Assembly (NCBI GenBank): GCA_017483805.1 | Contig: JAFUUL010000096.1 | Coordinates: 29,578 to 93,577 of the forward strand | DNA from: Prevotella sp. | Lineage (GTDB): Bacteria; Bacteroidota; Bacteroidia; Bacteroidales; Bacteroidaceae | DNA: 64,000 nt | Reading direction: 5' to 3' | Shown: positions 35,760 to 55,459 of the stretch, in pieces | How positions within the stretch are numbered: position 1 is the stretch's first letter | How the letters are laid out: each line of letters opens with the position of its first letter | Notes under the pieces: generated by a model | Database searches by the model: none | Told to the model about the DNA's origin: nothing | What the model saw: the letters and a program-made list of their open reading frames with translations, nothing else | Translations under genes and position numbers: made by a program

Positions 35760-36176
35760 TTATTGCTTCTTATATTTCGATTTCTGAGCCCAGTCCTCAA
35801 GTTGAATGTCTGGGATATGGTCAAAATGCTTGAGATTCGAGGTGACCATAATGAGATCATGATAGACAGCACAGGAACCTATCAGCAGGTCGAACTCCCC
35901 AATCATACGCCCTTGCTCCTCAAGCAGTGCTTTGTTCTCCCCATATAGGCGGAGCGAAGGCAGTAATGGCATAAGATCGAATGACTGTAGAATCTTGTCT
36001 ACATCTCCGAAGTGGTCTGAATTCCCTGATTTGGCGGCACCAAAGAATAATTCTGCAATAGTGATGTCTGTCACGAAGCAATTCTCTTCACCTGCGGCTT
36101 CCACTTTGTCAAGCACTCGAGTGTTGTGCTTGATAACTTCAATACAGATATCTGTATCAAGTAGATATTGTTTCAT
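35760..36176 (-). CDS. PIN-domain toxin, VapC-like
   Basis: Predicted RNase toxin. I use the ATG at 36176 (MKQYLLDTDICIEVIK); 138 residues. PIN acidic residues are seen: the first Asp in LLDTDICIE, Glu in DITIAELFFGAAK, and Asp in GEFDLLIGSCAV, followed by MVTSNLKHFDHIPDIQLEDW, a typical end of the family. The antitoxin gene lies upstream, separated by four bases. Members usually cut tRNA or rRNA; the target here is unknown. The module is bracketed by 123-bp direct repeats. Confidence 0.88.
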   Translation of the reverse strand: MKQYLLDTDICIEVIKHNTRVLDKVEAAGEENCFVTDITIAELFFGAAKSGNSDHFGDVDKILQSFDLMPLLPSLRLYGENKALLEEQGRMIGEFDLLIGSCAVYHDLIMVTSNLKHFDHIPDIQLEDWAQKSKYKKQ

Positions 36177-36180
36177 GGTC

Positions 36181-36411
36181 TTACCAACTTTCAACAGTTC
36201 TTCCATGATACTCATGGTCTCTGAGACTGTCAGCATCCACTTCAGTCCAATCACCTTTGAAACAATTCCGCAGGTTGGGGCGCACACGCTTCTTGTCTGC
36301 ACCGACGCGCATTGAGTTTGACAATTTGGATATCAAATCAAGTTTGTCGCTATTACTGAGTGATGCCAGCACAACCATATACATATCTGTTATGTTTCGT
36401 GTACCTATCAT
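36181..36411 (-). CDS. Antitoxin of the VapBC-like pair
   Basis: A 76-residue basic protein (ISKLSNSMRVGADKKRVRPNLRNCFKGDW) immediately upstream of the PIN toxin. Position, size and spacing are those of an antitoxin; the sequence contains no VapB/AbrB or RHH motif that I recognise with confidence. It probably binds the promoter just upstream and neutralises the toxin through its C-terminus. Assigned mainly on context. Confidence 0.7.
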   Translation of the reverse strand: MIGTRNITDMYMVVLASLSNSDKLDLISKLSNSMRVGADKKRVRPNLRNCFKGDWTEVDADSLRDHEYHGRTVESW

Positions 36412-40251: not shown

Positions 40252-40626
40252 TTACCACACCGGCACGGTATCTCGGTCTTGTGTGTAGCCAACAGGCCAG
40301 GCTGCATCGGTCTGTTCGTAGGTTGAGGGGCTGACGGCAATGCCGCCCTGCCCGTTGCCGGAGTCGCCGCCATTGGTGCGTATCATGCCGTTGCAGACGG
40401 CCATGTCCCAGTCATTGCGCTGGCTCCACTGTCGCTGTGCAGTGGTGTCGCTGATACTGCAGGTGCCAACCACGCGTCCCTGTGTCAGCGACACATAAGT
40501 CCACTGGTTGGCCACGTTGGCTATGGTCAGGCTGCCTTGGCTGATGATGGGGCTGGCCTCGTCGCTGCTGCAGCCAGTGCCGAGCAGCGACAGGAGTAAA
40601 AGTAGGATGGCGGATGCTTGTTTCAT
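40252..40626 (-). CDS. HmuY-like lipoprotein (short form)
   Basis: A 124-residue lipoprotein (LLLLLSLLGTGCSSD, Cys19). The mature part has WTYVSLTQGRVVGTCS, a WDMAVCNGMIRTNGGDSGNGQGG block and QTDAAWPVGY, the arrangement of the first part of HmuY, the haem-capturing surface lipoprotein of Porphyromonas; at 124 residues only about the first half of a HmuY is present. Haem-ligand residues cannot be assigned from this. Last gene of the 12-kb operon, overlapping the papain-like gene by four bases (ATGA). HmuY-like identity is a pattern match and needs a profile search. Confidence 0.65.
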   Translation of the reverse strand: MKQASAILLLLLSLLGTGCSSDEASPIISQGSLTIANVANQWTYVSLTQGRVVGTCSISDTTAQRQWSQRNDWDMAVCNGMIRTNGGDSGNGQGGIAVSPSTYEQTDAAWPVGYTQDRDTVPVW

Positions 40627-42047
40627 TCTTTCACTTCGTATCTGATGGTGATGGTCTGATTCTGTTCGTTGACATTCTCAAACTGCACCTTCGACGGATG
40701 GCCGTCGGTAGTGCGCAGCAGGAATGTGTCATCGCCCTGGTCGTAGCGGTAAGGGGAGGCCGGGAGCGTGTAGCGCGGCTGGAGAGGGATGCGGAAATAG
40801 TTGTCTCCGTCGGTCAGAGCCTGTGGTAACGCGTTGCGGCAGGGATATTCCTTAGCCACGGGAGTGCGCAGGTCAACGACGGAGAGCGACACTAGCCGGC
40901 CCTCTCCCTTCTGCTTGCCCCGGTAGCCGCGTACGATGTCGAGCCAGTACTGGGCGTAGTCCTTGGTGGAGTCCATCTGTTCGGTCAGGTCGATAGCCAG
41001 CTCGATTTCTCCCGGCAACATGTAGCCCTGCATGGGAAGGTCGCCGCCCTGATTGCGAAAGGCGTTGCTGGTGCGCATCTGCAGTGGGCGGTTGGTGGTG
41101 ACCTGTGTGCTGAGGCCCGTGCTGAAACTGAGGTCGTCGCGTGAGGAATAGTCGATGGTCAGTCGGAGAACCACCTGAGGTTCGTGGATGCGCACGGTGC
41201 ATCCCTCTACCGTGTTGCTCAGCACCAGCGAACTGACAGTAGGGTCGCGGAAGAAGTCGTAGGGTAGGTAGAAATGCCCCCGGTCCTGCCAGTCATCCCC
41301 CCACGAGTTGACCACGATGAAGGCCCCGTCGTGGCGTTGCCCATGATGGTCGGTGTAGGTGACTCGGTCATCGTAGCCCACGATGGTCATGGCGTGGGAG
41401 CCGCCAGTGGCCAACGAGGTGAGCAGGGCGTGGTAGCCCGTTTCAGACGGCCCTTGATAGTTCTCTATGTCCCAGCCTTGGCTCTGGCCGGAGAAGGTCA
41501 GCACGCCGCCGGTGGCACTGCCGTCACCCTTGTCGTAGAGATAGCGCTTCATGAGGGAGACGCTGTCATCGTAGGTGTAGATGGTCGCCACGCGGTGGCG
41601 CATGGCTCTGACATATTTTTCGTATCCGTTCACCCACTTGAACATGCGGAGATAGCCATAGTCCTGCTCAGTCATGATGCCATATTGGCGTGCCAGTTGC
41701 AGTCCTTGACTGACAAAGCCGCCCTGGTCCTCGCCGTCGTTCAGCATATTCCAGGCAAACATATAACTTAGCCTGTTATCTGCCGAGGCCGATGCGTCGC
41801 GATCCAGCAGGCGGTTCACCTCATAGGTGAGCATATAGGCAATGCCGGCAGCCTGTGCACAGGATCCGCCGGATTGGTTGATGATAGGTGGGAAATACTT
41901 CAGTGTGGAGTTGTCCACTGAGGCCGGTAGTTCGATGTCAGTCTTGATGGTAGTCCTGAATGGCACTTTACTGACCGGCTGTGCCCCTGCTGTCATGCAG
42001 CAGAGGAGCGTGCACAGCAGCAGGGGGAATGACAGGTTATTTCGCAT
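40623..42047 (-). CDS. Exported papain-family cysteine peptidase (C1-like)
   Basis: Predicted secreted peptidase of 474 residues: signal peptide MRNNLSFPLLLCTLLCCMTAGAQ, then a papain-like domain with the active Cys in NQSGGSCAQAAGIAYM (Cys63), His in GGSHAMTIVGYDD (His218) and Asn in FIVVNSWGDDW (Asn247). The C-terminal 200 residues are beta-rich and of unknown fold. It belongs to a cluster of two C25-like peptidases and overlaps the first of these by 11 bases. Confidence 0.88.
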   Translation of the reverse strand: MRNNLSFPLLLCTLLCCMTAGAQPVSKVPFRTTIKTDIELPASVDNSTLKYFPPIINQSGGSCAQAAGIAYMLTYEVNRLLDRDASASADNRLSYMFAWNMLNDGEDQGGFVSQGLQLARQYGIMTEQDYGYLRMFKWVNGYEKYVRAMRHRVATIYTYDDSVSLMKRYLYDKGDGSATGGVLTFSGQSQGWDIENYQGPSETGYHALLTSLATGGSHAMTIVGYDDRVTYTDHHGQRHDGAFIVVNSWGDDWQDRGHFYLPYDFFRDPTVSSLVLSNTVEGCTVRIHEPQVVLRLTIDYSSRDDLSFSTGLSTQVTTNRPLQMRTSNAFRNQGGDLPMQGYMLPGEIELAIDLTEQMDSTKDYAQYWLDIVRGYRGKQKGEGRLVSLSVVDLRTPVAKEYPCRNALPQALTDGDNYFRIPLQPRYTLPASPYRYDQGDDTFLLRTTDGHPSKVQFENVNEQNQTITIRYEVKE

Positions 42048-44208
42048 GGATACGATTCTGTGTCTTTAGGGCCTCGTCGCGTACAGCCTGGCTATACTTC
42101 GGGTCCTGCTGAATCTTTTGCATGGCCTCGCTGATGAGCGATGCCTGATAACTGAGGGGATGCCACCCCAGGGCCTCGATGATGAGCAGTTTGGTATCCT
42201 CGTCGGCAGCGCTCTGGGCGAAGTCGAGCATCTGGGGAATCAAGTGGTGGACGGCCGTGTTGCGTGTGGCCCGGATGGCGAAGCGGCGCTCCTTGGCATC
42301 GGCATCGGCCTTGAGCGTGGCCTCCAGGTCTTTAGCGGTCTTGTCTGCATTGTAGGCGATGGCCTTCTCGATGACATGATGCACAGAGTCCTTGCGGATA
42401 TAGCGCACCGTGGGGGCATTGAACTGGCGTTCGAACTCGGCCAGCAGTTTCTCCTTGGGGAATGAGGGGATGGCCTGCGTCACGTCGAACGTGACACGGT
42501 CGCTGGTGTTGTTGGCAATGGCCAGCGTGATGAGTTGGGGAATCAGCCGGTCGTCGCCGCTCTCTCCGTAGTAGCGGACGGCCAGACGCTGTAGCAGTTC
42601 GAAGGAATCCTGCGAGGCAAGTTGCAGCAGGGTGATGGTGTTGTCATCGGCAAAGTCTACGATCGAGCGCAGCGTCTGCAGGCGGACTATGCCGTAAGGC
42701 GAAGACTTGAAGATGCCGAGCAGTTCGCTGCTGCTGATGGCCTCGTGCTGGTGGAGCATCTCGATGGCCAGGGCCTGCTGCTCGGGCGTGCCCTTCTTCA
42801 GCACTTTCTTCCAGTCGGCCACTTTGCCGAAAGAGATGAGGTGGTCAATGTCAGCAGCGTTGGCCACACTGGCAAAGCGATAAGTGGGGTCGCCGATGAC
42901 ATGCGATTCCAGATACGTGCTGAAGCGGGCCATGTCGCCAATGCAGCCGCCCTCGTCGAGCAGGCCGATGAAGCGGTCGCTCCACTTGTCTTGCAGCGAG
43001 TTGACGCTGTTGGCCAGCACTGCAACGGTCTGTCCGGGCTGGAAGATATATTCGTTGGCGATGCAATCGTCGCGATGGAATGAGCCGTTGAAGCAGGCGT
43101 CGAGGATGATGACAGGCGTGTTGGGCTGATAGCCGTAGATGGCAAAGTCTTCTAGATGCATGTCGCTGACGGCATCGTAGATGGAGTCTTCGCGGGCCAG
43201 ACTGTCGCTCAGTGCATCCTTGGCCCATGACTCGGGCACGTCGAATCGCTTCAGGAGTACGGCCATCACCGAGTCTACGTTGCGGCCACGCTCGTGGGCC
43301 GAATAGATGTGTTGACGGATGTTACGCTCGATATAGGTCTTGGCATCCTTGACCATATAGGGGCGACGCACTTCGCTCAGGTATTCTGTGTCCCAACTGC
43401 CGTGGTGGTGCAGCACTGCCACGTCGAGGTCGGTGCGCATCAGTTCATTCATCAGGTGCTCCTTGATAGGGTTGTGGTCGGAGTGATCCATGAAACTGAA
43501 GTGGTTGGTATTGCCCAGCAGCGAGGGGAAGTGCTCTGTGAAGGCAGGCTTCTCGTCTTGGCGGGCCACTTTCGACTCAGAGATGTAGCCATGGCCGCTG
43601 AAGAAGAACAGTTGGTTCACGCTGCGGGCCTGGCGCTTGGCTGCCGTGGCCTTGTTCAGGTAGGCACGCAGTTTCTCGTAGCGTGTGGTGCCGCCGATGT
43701 CAGTGGGGCGAATGCGGCCGCTGTAGATGTCGGGGTGGGTGCGCTGTGAACCCTCGGGGGCGATGCTGTAGTAGAAGTAGGGTGCGTCAGCGTCTTTGTC
43801 CAGATAGCGGAACTGGAGGCCGAAGTCATCATAGAAACGATCTGACGGCACCGATGACTCCTTGCGGGGCTGCGTCTGATTCATCTTGAAGGCCGAGGTC
43901 ATGTGCTGGCCGTCGCGCACCATTGGCACGGGAATGTCGCCAATGAACACGGCTCCTACAATGGGGTCTTGCTTCTGCTGGTGGAGCCGCTGCAGTTCCT
44001 GACGGATACTATCGGGTACTCCCCAGCGGTCAATCACGGTGAAGACCTTCAGCCCGTGCACCTCTTCTATCGCCCTGGCATAGGCGTCAACCTCGGTGCG
44101 GGCCTGGTCGTAACTCTTCGGGTCGATGACAATGGCAAACCCGTCGCGCGCCATCGTGACGGCGGCCACGGCAAAGAGTGCCAGTGTGGTAAGCATCATT
44201 TTCTTCAT
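42037..44208 (-). CDS. C25 (gingipain)-like exported cysteine peptidase, copy 1
   Basis: A 723-residue protein with signal peptide MKKMMLTTLALFAVAAVTMA. The caspase-like fold is shown by VGAVFIGDIPVPM, the His motif VLHHHGSWDTEYL (267-270) and the Cys motif VIILDACFNGSFHRDDCIANEYIF (Cys372), matching the gingipain catalytic dyad pattern. About 200 C-terminal residues form HEAT-like helical repeats. It is 4 bases after its paralogue at 44213 and overlaps the papain-like gene. Substrate unknown. Confidence 0.85.
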   Translation of the reverse strand: MKKMMLTTLALFAVAAVTMARDGFAIVIDPKSYDQARTEVDAYARAIEEVHGLKVFTVIDRWGVPDSIRQELQRLHQQKQDPIVGAVFIGDIPVPMVRDGQHMTSAFKMNQTQPRKESSVPSDRFYDDFGLQFRYLDKDADAPYFYYSIAPEGSQRTHPDIYSGRIRPTDIGGTTRYEKLRAYLNKATAAKRQARSVNQLFFFSGHGYISESKVARQDEKPAFTEHFPSLLGNTNHFSFMDHSDHNPIKEHLMNELMRTDLDVAVLHHHGSWDTEYLSEVRRPYMVKDAKTYIERNIRQHIYSAHERGRNVDSVMAVLLKRFDVPESWAKDALSDSLAREDSIYDAVSDMHLEDFAIYGYQPNTPVIILDACFNGSFHRDDCIANEYIFQPGQTVAVLANSVNSLQDKWSDRFIGLLDEGGCIGDMARFSTYLESHVIGDPTYRFASVANAADIDHLISFGKVADWKKVLKKGTPEQQALAIEMLHQHEAISSSELLGIFKSSPYGIVRLQTLRSIVDFADDNTITLLQLASQDSFELLQRLAVRYYGESGDDRLIPQLITLAIANNTSDRVTFDVTQAIPSFPKEKLLAEFERQFNAPTVRYIRKDSVHHVIEKAIAYNADKTAKDLEATLKADADAKERRFAIRATRNTAVHHLIPQMLDFAQSAADEDTKLLIIEALGWHPLSYQASLISEAMQKIQQDPKYSQAVRDEALKTQNRIHAK

Positions 44209-44212
44209 AATG

Positions 44213-46321
44213 TCAGTATTTTAGTCGTTTTAATGTCTTGATGGCTTCGTGCCTGACTTCTGGGGGCAGGCTGCCATTGGTGGTCATGCGTTCCACGATG
44301 GCAATCACCTCCTTGTGGGTGTAGGCCAGCCGGTGCCAGCCCAGGGTGCTCAGCAGTTCCACCTGCAGTGTGGGGTCTGTGGTCTTCTCCGTGAAAGCAG
44401 CCACATCGGCAGCCAGATAGGGCGGGAGGTATATCTTCATGCGGTCAGCCTGAATGTGCATACGGCGTTCAGACATCTGGCCGCTGACCATGCTGCGGAT
44501 GTCCGCTTCCCACCTTTTGGCATAGTGGCTCGCCTCTGTTGCTCGCTTTTGCCGGTATTCATCGGGCCAGGTCACGTATGGGGCGATGCTGTCCAGTGCC
44601 TTGTTGATGGCGGGCATGATGGCCTCTTCAGGGAAGAACTGGATGGCCTGCTGGGCATTGAATGCTACGCGTGCCGAGGTGTTGTTGCTCACGATGATGC
44701 GAGCCAGCGACGGAGCCAGCCGCGGGTCGCCGCACTTCTGCATGGCGTTCACAGCAAAGCGCTGTAACAGTTCGAAATTATCGAGGGAGGCCGCTTCGAT
44801 GGCTGCTGTCAGCAGGTCGCTGTTGCGGTCTTGCAGCAGCATGAAGGCTTGCAGTCGGACCAGTCCGAGAGGCGACGTGCGCAGGGTGTGCAGCAGTTGG
44901 CTGTCGCTCAGCCTGTTGCCCTGCTCTATCATGGTCAGGCTCTGTTCATCGGCAGACTGCCCGTTGCCTTTGTCTGCCAGAAACACATACGTGGGGTCGC
45001 CCACCACGTGCATCTCCAGTTCCGGGCACAACTGATTGATACGTCCCACCGTCAGCCCTTGCCCGAGGAGTCCGATGAGGTGGTCGGGCCACTTGTCTTG
45101 CAGCACGTTGACCGTGCCGCCCAGCCCGGCGATGGTCTTGCCCCCGCTGAAGATATATTCGTTGGCAATGCAGTCATCATTCTGGAAGGCTGCGTTGTAG
45201 CAGGCGTCATAGATGGCCACGCGGCAGTTGGGCCTGTAGCCGTAGTTGAGGAAGTCCTTCAGCGTTAGGTTTAGCGAGTCCTCCATCAGCGAGTCCAGAT
45301 GCTGATGCTCGGCTGTCGGCTCGCCCTTGAGCCATTCTTCGGGCAAGTGGTCACGCTCTGTCAGCAGGTGTCGCACGCTGTCTACGTTCTCACCGTAGCG
45401 CCTGGCCCGCTGTAGGCGGACACGATAACTGTAGAGCAGGTAGTCCAGTGCCTGCTGTGTGCCTGACGGCTTAGGGTAGGAGGTCAGATACTGTGTGTCG
45501 AAGTCACCATGGTGGTGCATCAGGGCGATGCCCAGGTCGGGGCGCATCATCTCGTTCATCAGGCGGCGCTTGATGAAGCGCTCATCGCCGAAGTCCATAT
45601 AACTGAATGCTCCGGGCTGCATGGCCAAAGTGGGAAAGTGCTCGCGCATGGCCATCTGTTCGCCGATGTGAGCCACTCGTGACTCGGTCAGCGATCCGCT
45701 GCCCGTATAGACAAAGGTGGACTGTAGTTTCTCGGGATGGCGCTTGGCGTCGGTGGCCTTGCGCAGATAGACACGCAGTTTCTCATAGCGCGACGTGCCG
45801 CCGGCATCGGTGGGGCGCAGACGGCCTGTGAAGAGGTCGGGGTGCAAACGCTGGTTGCCTTCGTGGCTGAGGCTGTAGTAGAAGAGATGTGGTGAAACGG
45901 AGTCGCGCTTCAGGAACTTAAACTGCAGGCCGAAGTCATCATAGAAGCGGTCGGAAGGCACGCTACTGTCGGGCCACGGCTGCTTCTGGCTCATCTTGAA
46001 GGCAGAGGTCAGAAACTGGGCATCACGAATCATCGGCACGGGAATGTCGCCGATAAAGACGGCCCCGACAATGGGGGATTTCTTCTGCCGGTGGAGTCGT
46101 TGCAGTTCCTGCCGGATGCTGTCAGGCACGCCCCAGCGGTCTTCCACGATATAGACATGGAACCCCTGCATCTCTTCCAGGGCCTGGATGTATCCCTGTA
46201 GTTCTGTGGCTGCCTGACGGTGGCTCTCAGGGTCTATCACGATGGCAAAGCCTGCGCTCTGCCGGGCAAAGCCTGTGGCTACGGCCAACAATGCTGTGAT
46301 GGATAATAGAAGTTTCTTCAT
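44213..46321 (-). CDS. C25 (gingipain)-like exported cysteine peptidase, copy 2
   Basis: A 702-residue paralogue of the protein at 42037: signal peptide KLLLSITALLAVATGFA, VGAVFIGDIPVPM, His motif LMHHHGDFDTQYL (269-272), Cys motif IYDACYNAAFQNDDCIANEYIF (Cys374), and a helical C-terminal half (LLQRFAVNAMQKCGDPRLAPSLARI). The conserved blocks align end to end with copy 1, indicating a tandem duplication. Residue changes around the Cys (FNGSFH versus YNAAFQ) suggest different specificity. Followed by copy 1 after 4 bases. Confidence 0.85.
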   Translation of the reverse strand: MKKLLLSITALLAVATGFARQSAGFAIVIDPESHRQAATELQGYIQALEEMQGFHVYIVEDRWGVPDSIRQELQRLHRQKKSPIVGAVFIGDIPVPMIRDAQFLTSAFKMSQKQPWPDSSVPSDRFYDDFGLQFKFLKRDSVSPHLFYYSLSHEGNQRLHPDLFTGRLRPTDAGGTSRYEKLRVYLRKATDAKRHPEKLQSTFVYTGSGSLTESRVAHIGEQMAMREHFPTLAMQPGAFSYMDFGDERFIKRRLMNEMMRPDLGIALMHHHGDFDTQYLTSYPKPSGTQQALDYLLYSYRVRLQRARRYGENVDSVRHLLTERDHLPEEWLKGEPTAEHQHLDSLMEDSLNLTLKDFLNYGYRPNCRVAIYDACYNAAFQNDDCIANEYIFSGGKTIAGLGGTVNVLQDKWPDHLIGLLGQGLTVGRINQLCPELEMHVVGDPTYVFLADKGNGQSADEQSLTMIEQGNRLSDSQLLHTLRTSPLGLVRLQAFMLLQDRNSDLLTAAIEAASLDNFELLQRFAVNAMQKCGDPRLAPSLARIIVSNNTSARVAFNAQQAIQFFPEEAIMPAINKALDSIAPYVTWPDEYRQKRATEASHYAKRWEADIRSMVSGQMSERRMHIQADRMKIYLPPYLAADVAAFTEKTTDPTLQVELLSTLGWHRLAYTHKEVIAIVERMTTNGSLPPEVRHEAIKTLKRLKY

Positions 46322-46327
46322 AGGCAG

Positions 46328-47902
46328 TTAGAACTTGAGGTAGAAGCCCGCTTCAACCGTTGTGAGCGATGTGCCGTCGTATCCTGTCCAGTACTCCTGA
46401 TTGTCGGTATAGAGGTGCAGGCGGCCATTGATATATGCTCCGGCGGTGAGCCGTTCGGTGGCCGGCAGTGAGACATCGGCCAATGCATGGATGCCCAGCC
46501 GGCTGGCTGATTCGTATTCAAAGATGCGGCGAGTGTAGGGACGGGAGATGTCGTCCTCGCCTGTAAAAGCAGAGCCGTTGGCATACTCCTTGGTGCCAGG
46601 TAGCCGATAGGTGCCGCCCAGTGCGGTCTGCAAAACTACCTTACTTATATATATAGACTTGCCAGCCTCCAGTGAGAGGTCGATGGTCTGGATTTTCTGT
46701 GTAGGAGTGGAAGAACCTTGGAAGTGCTTCTGGGTGAAATAGTTCAGGCGGGCACCGGCGTCAACAAAGATGTTGCGTTGTCCGCCCTTGAGCAAGTCCA
46801 GCCGATAGCCTAATCCGGCACTTAGCCGCTGAGTCTTCTGGATGGTGCTCTCGTTGAGTATGCGATAGAAAATGGCACTGTTGAGTTCGGTGTCCAGTTC
46901 TCGTTTCTGGTCGTACCAGTTACCCTTTCCGCTGGTGTAGGCGGCTGAGAGCGAAAAGTTGTGGCGGGTGTTCTCGTTGGCTCTCCACAGGAAGCGGTCG
47001 GTCAGCGCGATGAGGGTCTCCTTGTAATCTCCTCCGTGGAAGGAGTAGGATTCTCCACCGTCTATTGCATCCTCATTCTCCAATTTGACGGATATCTCTG
47101 TGAAGTTTTCCGTCTGTCCATCGCGGGGATGCCACACGGCTTGGAGGGCAGCAGAAAGGGCGTGTCCACTGAAATCGCGCTTGTAGCCAGACTCGTCGCC
47201 CGATGAGCGCTTTGCATAGTCCCCCATGCCTTTCATGAGGAAGTAGCGATGGGAGTGGAGTGTAGAGTTGACGTTGGTGTATTCGACGAGAGAACTGAAG
47301 AAGCGCACGCCAGCAGAGACTCCTGCGCTCCAGTTGTCTGTGAGTCGGTAGTCTGCTCCCAGCGTGATAGGGAGAATGGAGGTGACCGTTCGAGGGCGGG
47401 GGTCGGTTTGGTCAGCCTTGTTGCCCGTGCGGAGACCAATTTCGACGGCTCCTTTCAGGCGGTCGGAGAAAGAATAGGTTGCAGATGCCTGCATGTCGTA
47501 AGACTCTGTAGTGGCATCGCCAGGCACAGAGTCGCAAATGGCGAAGGGGTTGTCAGGGTTGTTCCATGGCATGGCACTCCATGCCAGGTCGTTGTCCTTT
47601 TGGTTCCGGTAACTGATATGGCCTTGCACATCAAACTTCCCTATGTGTCGCAGTCCACCGATATACGCCTCTATGGCATGGGCATCGCCAGAGGCATCGA
47701 CGGCATGGAAGTCACCCTTGCTGAGGCTGTAGTTGACGTTGGCCACGGCAAAGTCTCGCTGCACGTTGTAGGCAATCCGGGTAGGGTTGTGGCTGGCGTA
47801 GCGGATATTGGCGGGTTGGTTGATATATCCTTCATTCCACGTTTGTGCCTGAGTGGTCAGGCAGGTGACAATGGAGAGAAGTACCAGAACGGTTTGTTTC
47901 AT
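46328..47902 (-). CDS. Outer-membrane beta-barrel protein (DUF6850-like)
   Basis: A 524-residue exported protein with signal peptide MKQTVLVLLSIVTCLTTQAQ and alternating aromatic/polar strands throughout (YKRDFSGHALSAALQAVW, TQKHFQGSSTPTQKIQTIDLSLEAG), ending in a Phe-terminated strand (EAGFYLKF), as expected of an outer membrane barrel. I assign it to the family I know as DUF6850. It probably forms a channel or scaffold for the products of the operon. 6 bases before the C25-like gene; 71 bases after the DUF4876 gene. Confidence 0.75.
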   Translation of the reverse strand: MKQTVLVLLSIVTCLTTQAQTWNEGYINQPANIRYASHNPTRIAYNVQRDFAVANVNYSLSKGDFHAVDASGDAHAIEAYIGGLRHIGKFDVQGHISYRNQKDNDLAWSAMPWNNPDNPFAICDSVPGDATTESYDMQASATYSFSDRLKGAVEIGLRTGNKADQTDPRPRTVTSILPITLGADYRLTDNWSAGVSAGVRFFSSLVEYTNVNSTLHSHRYFLMKGMGDYAKRSSGDESGYKRDFSGHALSAALQAVWHPRDGQTENFTEISVKLENEDAIDGGESYSFHGGDYKETLIALTDRFLWRANENTRHNFSLSAAYTSGKGNWYDQKRELDTELNSAIFYRILNESTIQKTQRLSAGLGYRLDLLKGGQRNIFVDAGARLNYFTQKHFQGSSTPTQKIQTIDLSLEAGKSIYISKVVLQTALGGTYRLPGTKEYANGSAFTGEDDISRPYTRRIFEYESASRLGIHALADVSLPATERLTAGAYINGRLHLYTDNQEYWTGYDGTSLTTVEAGFYLKF

Positions 47903-47973
47903 GTTGATGTTCTATTGTTGAAAGTGTGCCGGTGGTCAGAACCACCGACACACGTAATGGTTAAGATGTTGGT

Positions 47974-49188
47974 TTAGTCGACTGCTGTCGGAGTCCAGCC
48001 AGGAGTGTTGTCCTCGCTGACATAGAAGTCATCGGCCGAGTTGTTGGTGTCCTTGTAGTATACACGACCATTCTCAATCTTGCTGACCTTGCGGCGAACA
48101 GGCTGTGAAGAGTACATGGCACCGCCGGGAATGCCCGTAGCATCGTCCTTAGCAGCGAAGAAGGGATAGTGGTCGGCGGGATCGACAGTGCTCTGGTAGA
48201 CATCGACGGCATCCAGCACATACTTCGAAGGAATCTTCATGTAGAGTGTCGAAGAGGTGGTGCCGGGATAGGTGGTGAAGTTGCTTTCGTCAGCCACAAA
48301 CTGCTGGGGTGTGGTGCCCTCGGGCAACTTGATGAGCATATAGGCGCGACCGGCAACACCGAAGGCCCACTGCTTCATTGTGGAACCGCTACGCATAGAC
48401 ACGGTCACCATGTTAGGAACTGATTCGTTGTCGATGTCACCCGTGCCAAAATACTTCTCAAAGTCGGCATTCGACAGGTCGGGAGCCTTCGAGTAGGCCT
48501 CCTTCTTCGACTCGTCAGTGCCATAAGACAATTTGTGGTTCTGAGCCTCGTCGGCCACGGTGACGGCCTGTCCGGGCTGGAGGGGATAGTCGGTGCCATT
48601 GCCGGGGAAGGCGATGACAATACCATTCAGAGCACCACCCTCGTTGTAGAAGTCGGGATACTCCTGCTGCCAGGCGTTCTGGGCTTTCAGGTTGGCCAGC
48701 GGGCAGGCCAGCATCAGGCCGTCCAGATACTGCACCTCGTCGGAGTTGTTGGCAACCTCCACGTAGCAGTCAAGCACGTAGCCCATCACAGTGCCCACGT
48801 TGTAGATGGTCTTAAACACCAGGGGGCTCTGGTTGTACTTGGTCAGATTCACGGTAGCGGTCTGCTCCTGATAGAGTTCAACGCTGGCAGAGCCTGTGAC
48901 ATAGGCCGTTGCCTCGTCCTTTACCTTGCCGCTGACGGTAATCTGATAGACACCCTGGGTCAGCGTGACGGTGGTCGGCTGGACTGCATTCAGGAGAATG
49001 GTGTCGTTGTCAACGCCATTGATAATCACTTTCACGTTGCCGATGTTGCTAGCATCCACATCCGTGGGATTCAGTGAGATGGTGAGGTCGTAACTCTTCA
49101 CCTTGTCGTCATCGTCTGAACAAGCGACAAACGTGGTCACGGCGAAGGCAGCAAAAAGTGCCAAACCGTAATTCAGAAATTTTTTCAT
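47974..49188 (-). CDS. DUF4876 lipoprotein
   Basis: A 404-residue lipoprotein: MKKFLNYGLALFAAFAVTTFVACSDDDDK, with lipidated Cys after the ATG at 49188; an in-frame start at 49242 would place 18 unlikely residues in front. The mature protein is beta-rich (DLTISLNPTDVDASNIGNVKVIINGV, VYQITVSGKVKDEATAYVTGSASVELYQEQTATVNL) and continues with a beta-helix-like domain (GALNGIVIAFPGNGTDYPLQPGQAV), typical of DUF4876. Its position between the TonB-dependent receptor and the barrel gene resembles that of a surface partner of the receptor. Confidence 0.78.
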   Translation of the reverse strand: MKKFLNYGLALFAAFAVTTFVACSDDDDKVKSYDLTISLNPTDVDASNIGNVKVIINGVDNDTILLNAVQPTTVTLTQGVYQITVSGKVKDEATAYVTGSASVELYQEQTATVNLTKYNQSPLVFKTIYNVGTVMGYVLDCYVEVANNSDEVQYLDGLMLACPLANLKAQNAWQQEYPDFYNEGGALNGIVIAFPGNGTDYPLQPGQAVTVADEAQNHKLSYGTDESKKEAYSKAPDLSNADFEKYFGTGDIDNESVPNMVTVSMRSGSTMKQWAFGVAGRAYMLIKLPEGTTPQQFVADESNFTTYPGTTSSTLYMKIPSKYVLDAVDVYQSTVDPADHYPFFAAKDDATGIPGGAMYSSQPVRRKVSKIENGRVYYKDTNNSADDFYVSEDNTPGWTPTAVD

Positions 49189-49245
49189 GCTTTCTTTTTT
49201 TTTTGTTAATGGATATAATGAATAATAAATAAATGGTAGCAAGGG

Positions 49246-52119
49246 TCAGAACTTCAGTTTCACTTCACCGCCAAAGTACATGGCAGGGTAGGACTGATAT
49301 TGGCCGTTGTTGTTGCTGAAGCGACGGTACTTGTGGGTGTTGGTCAGGTTGTTGGCGATGAATGACAATTCTGCCGTCTTGCCAATCTCCTTGGTCAAGC
49401 GCATACTGAGCATAGCCCACGGCTTTTCCACCTCTGGCTCAAGGTTGAAGAGTTGTCGGCGGTTCATATAGCCGTTGAGCAGTGAGTTCTCTGCATCTGC
49501 TGCAGTCCAGTCGTGCCAGTTGGCCTGCATATCGTAATAGCCCAGCGGGTCTACTACCATATAGTCTCTGTCGGAATAGTTCTTCAGGTAGTAGCGGCTG
49601 TGGCCGTTCTCATCCTCATAGATGCCCTTCTCGCTCTTCCGCCATACAACCTGCACATTGGTGGTGAAGATCATTTTCACCGCAGGTATATGGGTAATAA
49701 ATGCAAAGTTGGTACTGAAACGGTCTGTAATGGAACCAATGCCACTAGGGCTGACCACGCAATACTGGTTGGCAGTCGAGATGCGGTTGTTGACACTGAC
49801 GTTCTCGTAACTGATAGTCTCCCTCACGCGTTTAATCCACAGCCAGGCACCAGAGATGTTGAGGCTTGTGCGCAGGGGCTTCCATTCGCCTAAGTTGAGG
49901 GTGTATTCTATGCCGTGTTTCTCCGAGCGGGTAGTGTTGTCGGCCATTCCCCATGAGGCACGTTCGGTATAGATGGTCTTGGTGGCAGTGCCTGTTGTGC
50001 CGTTCAGTGTGTAGTTCACATTGTTGGTGGCAGGGTCGAAGACAGGCTTCGTGGCTCCTTCTGGTAAGGTGAAGTAGGGGTAGTCAATCCATAGCAGTTG
50101 TGTGGAGAACCCATATTCATCGTTGTGTCGCTCGTTGAAATAGGTGACAGAACCTTCCACCTGCCCCTTCTGTAACTGCAGGCCAATCTCCCATTTGCGG
50201 CTGCGTGTGGGCTTGAGGTCGGGGTTCTGTGTGTTTTGCACGATGGTGGTCTGTATGAGTCCGAGTCGTTCTGTGGGGTCATCGCTCCACCGGCCTAAAG
50301 CCACGTTGTCATAGTAGGCGGCATCGGGGTAGAGGTAGAGCAGTGACGGCATCTTGTTCGACAGGCCAAAGCCTCCGGTCAGTGTCAAGTCATCAAGCAT
50401 GGTGTTGTTCTTCCTGTTGAGCAAGTTGAGCGACAGATTGATGCGTGGCTCCAGTACGAGATAGCCGCTGTTCCCACCGCTCTTCTCTTTGTTGAGAAAC
50501 AGGTTCGACAGGCGGAGGCCTGCTTCCACCTGCGCCCTTATGGTTCCAAACGACAGGTCGGCGCGATCGCTCACAAATGCCGAAAGATTACTGATGGCTG
50601 GAATGTCATCGTAGGCTCTGGGGCGTAGTGTGTGGATGCTCATCATCTGGGGCTGCTTGTCATCATCATACGTCAGGCCTTTGCCGATGTTCCCATCGTA
50701 GGAATACTCGGCTCCCAGTTTGATGGTCGTATGATTATTTTCGCTCAGTTGGATATACTTGTTGGCCACGGCTTGTGCATAGAAATTCAAGGGAACGCTC
50801 TCTATGGTGTATTCCGACTGGTAGCCGTAGCGGCGCATTGCGGCCTGATGCAGACCCTCTTCGCGGCTGTTGGTGGAGACACCATCGGGATTGGACACCC
50901 AGGTGCTCTGCCAGTCATGCTGTCGGCTCAGTTGTCCGCTCAGTTTATAGTCCAGGCTGGTGATGAAAGTGTTGTCACCCGTGTAGCGACCATTGATGGC
51001 CAATCGCCCACCCGTGTTGTTGTTTTTCCACTCCGAGTAGGTTTCGGTCATCTGGGGGTCTCGCTTAGTGTTGTTGATGCTGGTGTGGAAAGCCCCGCGC
51101 ACATTGAACGTGGTGCGGCCGAACTTGTTACTATAGCCAGCCGAGGCTGTCACGCGGTCATAGCCCTTGTAGTGCAGACGGGTGTCGGCCCACGACTGCG
51201 CCCAGTCGACAGAGAAGTTCACGGCTCCGCCGCCGTTCAGGTTGAATCCCTTGCCCACGAAAGCCAGTTTTGAGTTGGGGTCTGCCGACACTTTGACTTC
51301 CCATGGCGTGAGGCCCGACTTGGTGTTGACGATGACTACGCCTGAAGTGAGGTTGCCGTATTCCACTGACGGGATGCCACGAATGACTTCCATCGACTCT
51401 ACTGTGCCGGCACTTACTGTGCGGAGGTCGACGCCGCGGCCTGCCGTGGCGTTCTCGCCGACCATCATGCCATTGTTGTCGGCGGTAGAGCCATAGCGGT
51501 TGGTGTTGAGCACTTCAAGGTTGGCGTTGTTTGACAGTGGCGTGCCGTCAACGAAGACCGCCACGCCTGCTGCGTTGTTGGCATTGTAGACAATCTTTCC
51601 TCCCGACTGTACATCTTCTATTTCGCGTATGTGCGCCTGCGATAGTTGATTAAGGTTAGGGTTCTCTATCAAGTTGCCGGGTACTAGTTGCAGCAGGTCG
51701 CCGATGCTTTTTGGCTGGATGTGGCGGATGGCATCTTGGTCGATGACCGACTTTGACCCCATCTGCACCTGCTTGGCTGTTACGGTGACATTGCTTAGTT
51801 GGAGTCCCAGGTCGTTGAGTCTTACCTGGAGGGCCTCGCGGCCTGTCTTGACATGAAATTCACCTGTAGCCGTCTCATAGCCTACGAAAGAAACCCGATA
51901 GGTGTATGTTCCGGCAGGAACATTCTTAATTTCAAAGTTGCCCTCCCCACCGGAGGTCGTCACCAGGTCTTGGTTCAGACTGATAGTAGCCAGTTCGATG
52001 CCCTGTCCCTTGGTGTCGGTCACAGTGCCATGAATGGTGAAATGGACATTTTGTCCACAGACGATTCCCGAAAAGGCATGGATAAGGATGAGTAGAAAGA
52101 ATTTCCTGAAATCTGTCAT
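49246..52119 (-). CDS. TonB-dependent outer-membrane receptor with CnaB domain
   Basis: First gene of the 12-kb operon; imports a ligand across the outer membrane using TonB energy. The ATG at 52119 (preceded by AAAA) gives the signal peptide MTDFRKFFLLILIHAFSGIVCGQ; 52137 is an alternative. Domains: CnaB/carboxypeptidase-like repeat (GTVTDTKGQGIELATISLN, GNFEIKNVPAGTYTYRVSFVGYE), plug (SVIDQDAIRHIQPKSIGDLLQLVPG; VFVDGTPLSNNAN; GTVESMEVIRGIPSVEYGNLTSGVVIVNTK), and a 22-strand barrel ending AMYFGGEVKLKF. 957 residues. No SusD-like gene is adjacent. Ligand not known; a HmuY-like protein at the operon end raises haem as one option. Confidence 0.92.
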   Translation of the reverse strand: MTDFRKFFLLILIHAFSGIVCGQNVHFTIHGTVTDTKGQGIELATISLNQDLVTTSGGEGNFEIKNVPAGTYTYRVSFVGYETATGEFHVKTGREALQVRLNDLGLQLSNVTVTAKQVQMGSKSVIDQDAIRHIQPKSIGDLLQLVPGNLIENPNLNQLSQAHIREIEDVQSGGKIVYNANNAAGVAVFVDGTPLSNNANLEVLNTNRYGSTADNNGMMVGENATAGRGVDLRTVSAGTVESMEVIRGIPSVEYGNLTSGVVIVNTKSGLTPWEVKVSADPNSKLAFVGKGFNLNGGGAVNFSVDWAQSWADTRLHYKGYDRVTASAGYSNKFGRTTFNVRGAFHTSINNTKRDPQMTETYSEWKNNNTGGRLAINGRYTGDNTFITSLDYKLSGQLSRQHDWQSTWVSNPDGVSTNSREEGLHQAAMRRYGYQSEYTIESVPLNFYAQAVANKYIQLSENNHTTIKLGAEYSYDGNIGKGLTYDDDKQPQMMSIHTLRPRAYDDIPAISNLSAFVSDRADLSFGTIRAQVEAGLRLSNLFLNKEKSGGNSGYLVLEPRINLSLNLLNRKNNTMLDDLTLTGGFGLSNKMPSLLYLYPDAAYYDNVALGRWSDDPTERLGLIQTTIVQNTQNPDLKPTRSRKWEIGLQLQKGQVEGSVTYFNERHNDEYGFSTQLLWIDYPYFTLPEGATKPVFDPATNNVNYTLNGTTGTATKTIYTERASWGMADNTTRSEKHGIEYTLNLGEWKPLRTSLNISGAWLWIKRVRETISYENVSVNNRISTANQYCVVSPSGIGSITDRFSTNFAFITHIPAVKMIFTTNVQVVWRKSEKGIYEDENGHSRYYLKNYSDRDYMVVDPLGYYDMQANWHDWTAADAENSLLNGYMNRRQLFNLEPEVEKPWAMLSMRLTKEIGKTAELSFIANNLTNTHKYRRFSNNNGQYQSYPAMYFGGEVKLKF

Positions 52120-52170
52120 TTTTATACTATTATTCATTGCCAAGTTGCAAAATTGTAAGGAATTTGGCCG

Positions 52171-52178
52171 CAAAAGTA
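52171..52178 (-). promoter_or_regulatory. -7 box for the 12-kb receptor/protease operon
   Basis: TACTTTTG on the minus strand; the only such box seen before 40252 on this strand. No Fur-like operator was recognised. Confidence 0.6.
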
Positions 52179-52288
52179 CGAAGAAAATCTGATATGCACA
52201 ATACCTAATTTTGGTGATTTTCCCCCCTTTTTCACTATTGCAAAGGAGAAAAGTGGGCCTGTCGCTTGCTTTTTTGAGATAAAGTTAG

Positions 52289-52315: not shown

Positions 52316-53305
52316 ATGATGGGTGTTGTGAGGTTTGTAAAAGACTGGACACTGCCCGTGGCAATGGGGCTTGGAGCAGTGCTTTACCTGGTGTTTGCCT
52401 TCGTGCCGGCGTTGGACGGGGCGGCCCTCTTCTTCGCTCCTATCATGGAGGCCATCTTGCCCCTGTTCATGTTTTTGGTGCTCTTTGTCACCTTCTGCAA
52501 GGTGGACTTCCACAAGATGCGTCCCGTGTGGTGGCATCTGTGGATCACCGTCTTCAATCTCCTCTTCGTCGCCATCGTCATGACCATCATCCTTCTGTTG
52601 CCAAATAGGAACTCATCACTTTTCACTCATCACTCATCACTGATCTTGTTAGAGGCCCTGCTGATGTGCATCATCGCCCCCTGTGCGACGGCGGCCGCGG
52701 TGGTGACGCAGAAACTGGGCGGTTCGCTGGAGGAGATGACCACCTTCACGTTTCTGTCCAACTTCATCACCGTGCTGATGGTGCCCCTGTGCTTCCCGAT
52801 GATTGAGAAGTCGGCCGACATCACCTTCATGGCAGCCTTTTGGAAGATACTCTATCAGGTGGTGACGCTGTTGGTGGTGCCCATGCTGCTGGCCTACATC
52901 GTGAAGCACTATATGCACCGTCTGCACAGGAAAATCATCTCCGTGCGCGACCTGTCGTTCTACCTCTGGGGCTGTTCGCTGATGATTGTGACTGGCACCA
53001 CGGTGAAGAACATCGTGCACGCCGAGGCCTCCATCTGGCTGCTCACGGCCATCGCCCTGCTGGGACTGGTGCTCTGCGTCATCCAGTTTGCCGTAGGCCG
53101 CTTCATCGGTCACTATTTCAACCGCACCCAGGAGGCCGGTCAGGCGCTGGGGCAGAAGAATACCGCCTTTGCCATCTGGCTTGGCGTCACCTATCTGAAT
53201 CCCCTCTCGAGTGTGGGGCCGGGATGTTACATTTTGTGGCAAAATATCATCAATTCGGTAGAGATTTGGCAAGAACGTAAAAATAAATTAGCAAAAAACG
53301 ATTGA
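52316..53305 (+). CDS. BASS-family transporter (bile acid:sodium symporter-like)
   Basis: A 329-residue integral membrane protein with about nine or ten membrane segments (LPVAMGLGAVLYLVFAFVPAL, LWITVFNLLFVAIVMTIILLL, LEALLMCIIAPCATAAAVVT, LTAIALLGLVLCVIQFAVG) and the family end motif LGQKNTAFAIWLGVTYLNPLSSVGPGCYILWQNIINS. Probably a sodium-coupled transporter of an organic anion; substrate unknown. Residues 97-109 (NRNSSLFTHHSSLI) come from an ACTCATC-type repeat placed in a loop between two membrane helices. Confidence 0.85.
   Translation: MMGVVRFVKDWTLPVAMGLGAVLYLVFAFVPALDGAALFFAPIMEAILPLFMFLVLFVTFCKVDFHKMRPVWWHLWITVFNLLFVAIVMTIILLLPNRNSSLFTHHSSLILLEALLMCIIAPCATAAAVVTQKLGGSLEEMTTFTFLSNFITVLMVPLCFPMIEKSADITFMAAFWKILYQVVTLLVVPMLLAYIVKHYMHRLHRKIISVRDLSFYLWGCSLMIVTGTTVKNIVHAEASIWLLTAIALLGLVLCVIQFAVGRFIGHYFNRTQEAGQALGQKNTAFAIWLGVTYLNPLSSVGPGCYILWQNIINSVEIWQERKNKLAKND
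52607..52643 (+). repeat. ACTCATC-type repeat in the BASS gene
   Basis: AACTCATCACTTTTCACTCA, TCACTCATCACTGATC units; in frame within a loop-coding region. Confidence 0.65.
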
Positions 53306-53322
53306 GTTTCGTGAAAAATGCT

Positions 53323-53330
53323 TATCTTTG
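53323..53330 (+). promoter_or_regulatory. -7 box for the SpoIIE-type phosphatase gene
   Basis: TATCTTTG, 23 bases before the ATG at 53354. Confidence 0.6.
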
Positions 53331-53353
53331 CAGGCGATAATATTAATTAAGGT

Positions 53354-55459
53354 ATGAAGAGACTGGCAAGATTTCTGACGGGCATGATGGCTGCTGCACT
53401 GCTGATGGCAGGCATCGTCTCGTGTGATGACGCCAAGACGCCGGTCACTAAACTTCGCTCCACCCACGCTGACAGTTTGATCTTCGATGCAGGCACCATG
53501 AAGGACTATGCCCGTATGCTGGAACTGACCGACAGTTTCGAGCAGGTGGGCAGCATCACAACGCTCGACGCCAACCGCTGGCGCGGCGTGGCCTACTATC
53601 GTCAGAACCAGTATCGCACGGCAGAGTTCTACTACAAGAAGGCTCTGGAGTGCGAGGTGAACACTGAGGCCGACCAGTTGAGTTATACCAAGGCTGCCCG
53701 GCGCCTGTCGGAACTGCTGCTCATCAAGGGCGACTACGAGGGATCGCTGCAGGTGGCCATGCCTGCCGTCGCCAAGATGGAAGCGGGCGGCTATGGTTCC
53801 GACATCGACTTTGCCATCCTGCTCAACAACATCGGCTGCTGCCAGTTGAACCTGGGGCGCGGCGCCGAGGCTCAGGAGAGTTTCTACACTGCCCGTCAGC
53901 ACTACATCAACCGCTGGTCGACCGACTCGACCGGCCGCGGCTTCCAGGAGGCCGTCATCGGTACTGTCTACACCAGTCAGGCCTACATCAACACCCGTCG
54001 GCTGGACGAGTCGCTCTATTGGATTGACCGCACGGAGATGCTGCTGGGCAAGTATGCCGAAAAGCCCGACGCCCGCACCGAATACTTCGATGAGTATCAG
54101 GCCCGCATCGAGATTATGCGTGCCGTGGCCATGCAGGGACTGGACAGCGTGGACAAGGCGGCTCAGGCCTACCAGCGCTTCATGAAGTCCGACTATGCCA
54201 AGACGAGTGCCGGCCGCATCTATGCCAACGACTATCTGCTGGCTGCCCATCGCTACAGCGAGGCGGCAGACAACTACCGCTATCTGGACCAGATGCTCGA
54301 CGAGTGGGGCATGGACCTCACGCTCGATAATGTTCAACTCTATCTCGTTCCGAAACTGCGTGCCAACATCGGGGCTCAGCGCCGCGACTCGGCTTTGGCC
54401 TTCGGCCTTCGCCTTTGCGACGTCCTCGACAGTGCCATCGTGAAAAACAAGAATGACGATACGGCCGAACTGGCCACCATCTACGAGACCCAGCAGAAGG
54501 AAGCGCAGATAGCCCAGCAGCAGGCTGGACTGGCCCGTCAGCGGCTTGTCAGTTCGCTGATAGCCCTGGCTCTGGTCATCGTGTTCTTCTCTGTCTTCAT
54601 CTACTTCCGCCACCGTTCGGCCCAGCGCTTGCGCCATGCCCACGGTCGACTGGAGGATGCCCACAACCAACTGCAGGCGGCCTACGACGAATTGGAGCGC
54701 ACGACGGCTGTGAAGGAGCGCATTGAGAGCGAACTGCGCATCGCCCGCGACATCCAGATGTCTATGGTGCCCCATCTCTTCCCGGAGCGTGAGGGCCTGG
54801 ATATCCATGCTTCGATGACGACGGCCAAGGAGGTGGGCGGCGACCTGTATGGTTATCTGCTGGAGGGCGACCTGCTCTATGTCTGCGTGGGCGACGTCAG
54901 CGGCAAGGGTGTGCCGGCCTCACTCTTCATGGCTCAGGCCACTCGCTTGTTCCGCACGCTTGCCGCCCAGCGTATGATGCCGGCAGAAATCATCACCCGC
55001 ATGAATACGGCCCTGACCGAGGACAACGAGCAGGGTATGTTTGTCACCATGTTCCTCGGCATGGTCGACTTGAAGACGGACCATCTCAATTTCTGCAATG
55101 CCGGCCACAACCCGCCCGTGCTGCTGGATCGATTTGAGTCGGATGACAAGAAGGCCGCCCGGTTCCTCGAGATGGAGCCGAATGCGCCCATCGGTCTGTG
55201 GCCCGGTCTGGATTTTGTCGGTGAGGAGATAGAGAGCATCAAGAACCATCCGCTGGTGATTTACTCCGATGGACTGACTGAAGCCGAGAACCCGCATCAG
55301 GAGCAGTTCGGTGAGGAGCGTTTGTTGGACATTCTTCGTAACAACCGCTTTGCCAGTGCCAAGCAGGTGGATGACTTCCTGATGAAAGAGGTGGAAACCT
55401 TTCGCAACGGCGCAGAGCCCAACGACGACTTGACGCTGCTCTGCATGAAGGTGGGCTGA
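53354..55459 (+). CDS. TPR lipoprotein with SpoIIE/RsbU-type PP2C phosphatase domain
   Basis: A 701-residue sensor-type protein: lipoprotein signal (LLMAGIVSCDD, Cys24), a periplasmic tetratricopeptide region (YRQNQYRTAEFYYKKALECE, ILLNNIGCCQLNLGRGAEAQESFYTARQHYIN), one membrane helix near residue 396 (LIALALVIVFFSVFIYF), a coiled coil and a cytoplasmic PP2C/SpoIIE domain (SELRIARDIQMSMVPHLFPE, AKEVGGDLYGYLL, VCVGDVSGKGVPASLFMA, FCNAGHNPPVLL, LVIYSDGLTEAENP). Such enzymes dephosphorylate anti-sigma antagonists; partners are unidentified. Ends base to base with lpxB: the two stop codons form TGATCA. Confidence 0.9.
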   Translation: MKRLARFLTGMMAAALLMAGIVSCDDAKTPVTKLRSTHADSLIFDAGTMKDYARMLELTDSFEQVGSITTLDANRWRGVAYYRQNQYRTAEFYYKKALECEVNTEADQLSYTKAARRLSELLLIKGDYEGSLQVAMPAVAKMEAGGYGSDIDFAILLNNIGCCQLNLGRGAEAQESFYTARQHYINRWSTDSTGRGFQEAVIGTVYTSQAYINTRRLDESLYWIDRTEMLLGKYAEKPDARTEYFDEYQARIEIMRAVAMQGLDSVDKAAQAYQRFMKSDYAKTSAGRIYANDYLLAAHRYSEAADNYRYLDQMLDEWGMDLTLDNVQLYLVPKLRANIGAQRRDSALAFGLRLCDVLDSAIVKNKNDDTAELATIYETQQKEAQIAQQQAGLARQRLVSSLIALALVIVFFSVFIYFRHRSAQRLRHAHGRLEDAHNQLQAAYDELERTTAVKERIESELRIARDIQMSMVPHLFPEREGLDIHASMTTAKEVGGDLYGYLLEGDLLYVCVGDVSGKGVPASLFMAQATRLFRTLAAQRMMPAEIITRMNTALTEDNEQGMFVTMFLGMVDLKTDHLNFCNAGHNPPVLLDRFESDDKKAARFLEMEPNAPIGLWPGLDFVGEEIESIKNHPLVIYSDGLTEAENPHQEQFGEERLLDILRNNRFASAKQVDDFLMKEVETFRNGAEPNDDLTLLCMKVG

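Follow-up and report, generated by a model that had tools for sequence, protein, structure and literature searches.

A conserved Bacteroidota operon joins an outer-membrane receptor and cysteine peptidases to a HmuY domain split over two genes

We analysed a 64,000-nucleotide stretch of DNA from Prevotella sp., a gut-type bacterium (assembly GCA_017483805.1, contig JAFUUL010000096.1, forward-strand positions 29,578-93,577; hereafter, the window), which carries seven minus-strand genes at window positions 40252..52119. On sequence evidence, these genes are a real, conserved operon, encoding a TonB-dependent receptor, a DUF4876 lipoprotein, a DUF6850 outer-membrane beta-barrel, two C25-like cysteine peptidases, a papain-like peptidase and a short lipoprotein. 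A single HmuY domain is split across the last two genes. The operon appears to be a genuine and conserved variation on TonB-dependent uptake linked to iron, with built-in peptidases, in which the split HmuY is most likely a dock, and no description of it was found in the literature searched.

A previous interpretation of this DNA, made from its letters alone (the sequence-only reading), had proposed seven minus-strand genes in series. All seven open reading frames (ORFs) were present in the ORF listing and the sequence check, and the coordinates agree exactly with the spacing it had given: gaps of 57, 71, 6 and 4 bases, followed by overlaps of 11 and 4. Its first three gene names were borne out by Pfam. 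The receptor (49246..52119) matched CarbopepD_reg_2 (6.1e-15), Plug (4.4e-9) and barrel (1.3e-10) models, its N-terminus consisting of a carboxypeptidase-regulatory-like domain and a plug; an alternative start ATG at 52137 is possible, and the receptor family had no solved-structure match at 0.001. The DUF4876 lipoprotein (47974..49188; 1.1e-38), whose start ATG is internal to the listed ORF, has a cysteine followed by SDDDD. The beta-barrel, which bears a Sec signal, belongs to DUF6850 (46328..47902; 2.3e-83), and its predicted model, with a mean predicted local distance difference test (pLDDT) of 93, has about 18 long strands, counted by eye. The best 50 Foldseek matches listed were TonB receptors, FadL, AlgE and other barrels with template modelling (TM) scores of 0.44 or less, and the barrel type was therefore left without assignment. 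For the seven window proteins, nothing scored above the NCBIfam cut-offs.

Gene order was read in 78 loci, drawn from the best 80 of 532 relatives retrieved from named genomes with a C25-like query; shares among them are not population frequencies. The order receptor, DUF4876, DUF6850 and C25-like peptidase (one to four copies, counting broken pieces) was found in 63 out of 78 loci, in line with the proposed single operon, which is thus conserved. Thirteen of the other 15 were cut on the 5' side, 12 by a contig end and one (L095) by the fetched flank; the remaining two exceptions were L055, without a recognised DUF4876, and L086, with an insertion. The short overlaps were also kept, at -4 or -11 between the C25-like and papain-like genes in 34 of 54 pairs and at -4 between the papain-like and HmuY genes in 25 of 47. 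The arrangement is found across Bacteroidales as well as in a few Bacteroidota outside that order; judged by the titles of their records, its carriers include Paraprevotella, Prevotella, Segatella, Hoylesella, Alistipes, Odoribacter, Coprobacter, Bacteroides, Muribaculaceae, Marinilabiliaceae, Prolixibacteraceae, one Flavobacteriaceae bin and one bin labelled Pseudoflavonifractor. Its distribution is patchy, given that the C25-like protein was retrieved from 17 out of 151 genomes of the family (the window's own genome included, and one weak at E 3.7e-4), in 12 out of 30 genera, with no match in the nine same-genus genomes of the listing. An operon-type receptor was found in one same-genus genome (L213), where the fetched stretch covers the receptor only. 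No flanking gene family was common to more than nine of the 78 loci, so that the limits of the unit are set by conservation itself. The largest shared flanking cluster, at nine loci, was an ABC-type ATPase, judged by its letters, that lay on either side and on either strand. Conserved flanking genes were considered as further members and rejected, since none was tied to the operon.

The last gene (40252..40626) encodes a lipoprotein that matches the HmuY profile at positions 3-60 of 157 only (1.3e-9), and HmuY-family structures in their N-terminal half only (8b61 at 1-119 of 238; 3h8t at 6-94 of 191). Profile positions 110-157 were found instead at residues 429-470 of the preceding papain-like peptidase (40623..42047), with an E value of 0.12 when searched alone, and no chain held the whole domain. 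This tail, residues 429-474 (40623..40763), corresponds to the C-terminal strands of HmuY. In hhalign comparisons with eight full-length HmuY relatives, the tail reached a probability of 94 and the lipoprotein 99, while five control comparisons with unrelated alignments all gave 14 or less. In the alignment of papain-like proteins, 11 out of 31 members matched HmuY at E<=0.1 (best 4.8e-5). Among ten peptidases hand-picked for HmuY-like tails, eight matched HmuY, seven of them within positions 94-157 and the eighth (L062) at 64-153. A profile of the tail matched four HmuY-family chains in the PDB at their C-termini, two of them below E 0.001 (8b6a 166-194 of 214, 3h8t 149-188 of 191, 6eu8 153-192 of 196 and 8b61 192-214 of 238). 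The two genes also travel together. The papain-like gene was present in 51 of the 70 loci uncut on the 3' side, with a short HmuY gene directly after it in 51 out of 51 (47 detected by profile and four read in frame by eye), and none of these 70 loci had a short HmuY without the papain-like gene. The short form measures 112-155 aa in those 47 loci, with the four read by eye in addition, and truncation as an artefact was rejected on these grounds. Weighing against the assignment of the tail are the E value of the window peptidase itself, the 20 out of 31 alignment members, the window's included, that miss the 0.1 threshold, and the top-ranked PDB match of the tail profile, which is not HmuY, being a flagellin-motif repeat protein whose match sums weak repeats.

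HmuY relatives other than that of Porphyromonas gingivalis use other haem-ligand residues. In the P. gingivalis protein, the palm is formed by beta1, beta6 and beta13-15 over beta2-5, while the thumb (beta7-8) and fingers (beta9-12), which sit between the palm parts, bind haem through the axial ligands His134 on beta8 and His166 on beta11 (PMC2671838). The haem-ligand region was matched in neither half: 3h8t aligned at chain positions 6-94 and 149-188 only, with the two ligands at about 109 and 141 by an offset of 25 taken from the chain length and last residue. The HmuY domain is, by these sequence matches, split across two adjacent genes. In the simplest reading, the lipoprotein gives the first six HmuY strands and the peptidase tail the last three, with loss of the haem-binding insert, and the two halves may assemble with each other. 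With the domain split and the ligand region matched in neither half, the short HmuY is probably a peptidase dock, and a canonical HmuY haemophore was rejected. The HmuY-like lipoprotein of the sequence-only reading thus holds as one HmuY relative, but its role in haem capture is not supported. In the window's own genome (assembly ~92% complete), the operon's half domain was the sole HmuY match at E<=0.01.

The rest of the papain-like protein (40764..42047; mean pLDDT of the model 88.8) comprises the catalytic domain (residues ~40-275; Pfam Peptidase_C1 1.1e-7), a beta-sandwich (~279-421) and the start of a low-confidence linker, after which the model places strands at 441-445, 451-460 and 465-472, with pLDDT values of ~73-82 in the tail blocks. 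The 50 Foldseek matches listed were all papain-family structures, and the active-site residues Q58, C63, H218 and N247 were present in each of the 53 copies that reach 400 aa, out of 56 copies in total; fold and residues together place the protein in family C1.

C25-like peptidases a (44213..46321) and b (42037..44208) have C-terminal HEAT repeats above the cut-off (HEAT_2 2.7e-6 and 1.4e-7, respectively). Their Pfam C25 scores (PF01364) were 17.8 and 17.9 bits against a cut-off of 23. In the alignment of this family, 13 out of 29 members, including window copy b, matched C25 at E<=0.01 (best 7.6e-9), and a six-frame search found two copies in related operons above the cut-off (36.9 and 24.1 bits). 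His269, Gly270 and Cys372 were present in each of the 132 copies that reach 600 aa, out of 141 copies in total, in His-Gly and Asp-Ala-Cys regions that we take to be equivalent to the gingipain active site. Gingipain homology was also sought by profile-profile comparison, with hhalign against 20 long C25 proteins (18 when trimmed to the domain), presumably PorU-like by their length; no match was significant, and the label C25-like was kept on the Pfam scores and active-site residues. No NCBIfam model of a type IX secretion system (T9SS) sorting domain matched the window copies at E<=1 or the 29 members at E<=0.001. These enzymes share with gingipains and PorU a weak Pfam C25 match and the presumed active-site regions, but they differ in falling below the Pfam cut-off in the window, in a catalytic domain that follows the signal peptide immediately, in their C-terminal HEAT repeats and in the unmatched T9SS domain. 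All three cysteine peptidases proposed earlier have intact active-site residues. Profile searches upheld the papain-like identity and the HmuY kinship, but left C25 under its cut-off and HmuY as a half domain. Tandem arrays of four or five C25-like genes were observed in six loci (L087, L093, L095, L098, L106 and L107), each with one shorter copy of ~660 aa; L095 has five full copies.

The first three genes are an exchangeable, widespread core. DUF6850 was matched in 37 of 296 genomes of the phylum, in 29 above the cut-off. Receptor, DUF4876 and DUF6850 were adjacent and co-directional in the window and in all eight other DUF6850 loci opened, which were chosen from the better matches and include two in the own genome. 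Different genes accompany this core: PepSY, an ATP-binding cassette (ABC) transporter and DUF4857 in L218, ABC and DUF4857 in L219 and PepSY in the opposite orientation in L221. In two further loci (L220 7902-14647 and L223 5242-11948), a di-haem cytochrome c peroxidase gene follows the core, where the operon has its peptidases. The two own-genome sets (L216 5768-11245, contig C28; L217 4541-10507, contig C112) showed no peptidase beside them, although the contig of L217 ends just after DUF6850 and one may lie beyond it.

Loci with a TonB receptor and DUF4876 have been published as iron-regulated (PMC10434189). Low iron raised expression of BT_3625-33 of Bacteroides thetaiotaomicron 38-128 fold, of BT_1933-39 (HEAT-repeat protein, DUF4876 and receptor) 3.5-7.4 fold and of PG1019-22 of P. 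gingivalis 20.8-214.5 fold, and BT_3625-33 was also induced in colitis (PMC10434189). A DUF4876 gene is, moreover, listed among the haemin-responsive genes of P. gingivalis (PMC10470040) and appears in the transcriptome table of a PG_0686 mutant (PMC10101095). The operon resembles the three low-iron loci in that a TonB receptor is listed with DUF4876, and its short four-gene form resembles BT_1933-39 in the HEAT-repeat protein listed there; it differs in that neither a papain-like peptidase nor a HmuY fragment is listed in the part of PMC10434189 describing these loci, where their function is left unassigned. The layout of L218 is that of BT_3625-33 by annotation order. In the open-licence literature searched, we found no description of the operon's gene order, as the sequence-only reading had anticipated, and neither DUF6850 nor the phrase "split HmuY"; DUF4876 occurred in three papers, and HmuY together with papain in two of unrelated title.

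The promoter that the sequence-only reading had noted upstream of the receptor is a predicted minus-strand pair of the Bacteroidota type (52171..52201), with TTG at 52201-52199 and TACTTTTG at 52178-52171. The consensus of this type is TTG/TAnnTTTG, and such a pair was present within 260 bases upstream of 35 out of 57 receptor genes, with 0.8 expected. Overlapping the -33 element on the same strand is a degenerate palindrome, AATACC-N8-GGTATT (52200..52219), with two arm mismatches. With up to two mismatches, this palindrome preceded the receptor in 33 out of 56 operons, the window included (0.96 expected), and it was perfect in 12 out of 56 upstream regions (0.00 expected), while other spacers from 4 to 12 gave 0-4 upstream regions. 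The palindrome was discovered in the same upstream set in which it was counted; independent support, therefore, comes from other genes only. The strict form had four sites in the own genome (control 0) and, with the own genome counted in, 24 sites across 12 same-genus genomes (control 4). Opening 19 same-genus site regions, we found FeoAB downstream of two sites (L200 and L209), TonB receptors in three regions (L197, L203 and L211), and an operon-type receptor (L213), an ABC transporter and MoeB (L206) in one each; the other 11 had genes without a clear iron link, including two that are sdhC-like by letters, without a Pfam match. Generic scans gave 10 sigma-70 sites against 6.0 in shuffles (standard deviation 2.3) and 12 terminator-like sites against 10.5 (standard deviation 3.3), two of the latter on the operon strand, inside genes.

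Acidic residues after the lipobox cysteine are the surface-export signal of Bacteroidota lipoproteins. By a crude rule, a lipobox was present in 56 out of 65 DUF4876 relatives (mean 2.7 acidic residues at +2..+6), 17 out of 141 C25-like proteins (mean 0.53) and 25 out of 47 half-HmuY proteins (mean 1.76); the papain-like, DUF6850 and receptor proteins all lacked one. When the rule was relaxed to suit the half-HmuY, the lipobox cysteine was found in 48 out of 48, the window included (mean 1.73). These counts suggest that DUF4876 is probably outside, on the cell surface, and that the C25-like pair is probably inside, with the papain-like protein wherever the half-HmuY sits. Set against this arrangement are the crudeness of the rule, the fairly acidic half-HmuY, which points to the surface, and the papain-like peptidase, which has only a Sec-type signal. 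The sequence-only reading had proposed digestion at the surface and import of a released product. Such a nutrient-import role is likely, but for the two C25-like enzymes the periplasm is likelier than the surface, since the T9SS domain is unmatched and the few lipoprotein-like copies lack the acidic signal.

As a whole, we consider that there is an even chance that the operon is an iron-responsive, peptidase-armed outer-membrane import system for protein or peptide, built on the receptor/DUF4876/DUF6850 core. In low iron, a repressor would leave the palindrome at the promoter, and surface DUF4876 would bind a protein that carries iron, or a peptide derived from such a protein, which the TonB receptor would bring, whole or in pieces, to the periplasm. 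There, the two C25-like peptidases, each with a signal peptide and a HEAT-repeat scaffold, would cut the import and free the metal. The papain-like peptidase would be tethered to the outer membrane, on its outer or inner face, with its last three strands completing the HmuY palm of the adjacent lipoprotein, and DUF6850 might be an additional channel through which small products leave or enter. Iron as the payload, the substrate, the direction of transport, the location of the peptidases, the pairing of the two HmuY halves and the role of DUF6850 are all presumptive in this scheme.

An iron-responsive regulator is favoured, with a sulfur or redox regulator as its rival. Several observations weigh against iron. 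The window's own palindrome carries two mismatches, and with two mismatches allowed, the own genome has 106 sites against 69 for the control. One further set of 12 genomes, own included, gave 11 strict sites against 6. Only 7 of the 19 opened regions have FeoAB, a receptor of the TonB type or an ABC transporter just downstream. Among the eight other core loci, the first gene is preceded by the palindrome (up to one mismatch) only in L218 and L219, and neither own-genome copy has it. BT_1933-39 and BT_3625-33 are matched by annotation order, not by sequence. The own-genome strict sites lie mostly at a cysteine/sulfur cluster, so that the regulator may sense something else. A pure iron-box reading is, thus, not proven, with the own-genome sites marking sulfur genes and many same-genus sites adjoining unrelated genes. 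That cluster (L165; contig C6 12000-31900) holds three strict palindromes within 10 kb, just before cysK, before MoeB/ThiF and at the start of a response-regulator gene, and encodes MoeB/ThiF, JAMM, an SLC1 transporter, cysK, a family-2 encapsulin shell with an encapsulin cargo cysteine desulfurase, and an O-acetylhomoserine (OAH) sulfhydrylase.

The operon might, under such a regulator, scavenge peptides or amino acids, notably cysteine and sulfur, with protein digested for nutrition. Three of the four own-genome strict palindromes and the same-genus site before MoeB fit this idea, as do three peptidases, which exceed the need for freeing iron, and the four or five C25-like genes of some relatives. 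We nevertheless consider it unlikely: the same palindrome also precedes FeoAB and TonB receptors, the genes that accompany the peptidase-free core are PepSY/ABC/DUF4857 or di-haem peroxidase, and low iron strongly induces a locus laid out in the PepSY/ABC/DUF4857 manner (PMC10434189).

The model of the sequence-only reading, in which haemoproteins are digested at the surface and the haem caught by the HmuY-like lipoprotein is imported, appears more doubtful still. Its composition recalls the HmuY-gingipain partnership (PMC3040768), and both the half-HmuY and DUF4876 resemble lipoproteins in which the cysteine is followed by acidic residues; against it, the HmuY halves lack the region of His134 and His166, and the C25-like enzymes have neither a T9SS domain match nor a surface signal. 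Import of haem or a peptide survives as likely nutrient import, but haem is not singled out, the evidence pointing to iron regulation in general. PorU with PorV processes the cell's own proteins in the T9SS. A comparable maturation or secretion module, with peptidases processing an own protein that DUF6850 exports, would suit a docked papain-like enzyme and the C25-like peptidase adjoining the DUF6850 barrel in all 63 full-order loci, but is improbable, as the operon has no substrate gene, no flanking family is widely shared, the receptor heads the operon and the DUF6850 core is also found where no peptidase adjoins it.

For iron-linked protein import, our preferred reading, the nearest concept is Fus ferredoxin uptake, in which an M16 peptidase acts on the protein after its import (PMC6793856, PMC6071955), and by analogy we read the operon as working like it. 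Both place a TonB-dependent transporter and a peptidase in one gene cluster, the Fus peptidase processing an imported iron protein, but Fus has an M16 peptidase and the TonB-like FusB where the operon has cysteine peptidases, DUF4876, DUF6850 and a half-HmuY (PMC6793856, PMC6071955). Neither an M16 peptidase nor a dedicated TonB homologue was matched among the seven operon proteins in Pfam or NCBIfam. The main text of PMC6793856 does not mention gingipain, cysteine, C25 or HmuY, and Bacteroides occurs once, in a supplementary figure legend. With the HmuY haemophore and hmu operon, the shared features are lipoprotein character and an HmuY domain recognisable in both halves; the split over two genes, the unmatched haem-ligand region and the lack of hmuRSTUV-type genes among the seven set the operon apart. 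It also differs from SusCD-type uptake, as its lipoprotein is DUF4876 and Pfam matched no SusD-family lipoprotein among the seven proteins. A more specific proposal, which we hold only tentatively, is that Bacteroidota have their own iron-from-protein import, unrelated to Fus, with DUF4876 as the catcher, C25-like digestion and a papain-like enzyme docked by strand complementation on a fingerless HmuY palm, a haemophore fold turned into a split docking module.

The operon offers a testable function for DUF4876 and DUF6850, two uncharacterised families found across Bacteroidota, and leads to the prediction that importing and digesting protein to obtain iron arose more than once. The split HmuY would be a co-encoded, ready-made strand-complementation pair, and short HmuY annotations need not mean haemophores. 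The palindrome may also provide an entry point to iron-dependent regulation among Prevotella-like bacteria. Elsewhere in the window, an SBF-family transporter gene and a TPR/SpoIIE phosphatase gene (52316-55459, plus strand) adjoin the operon divergently, and a minus-strand ORF at 35760-36302 resembles, by eye, a VapC-type PIN-domain protein.

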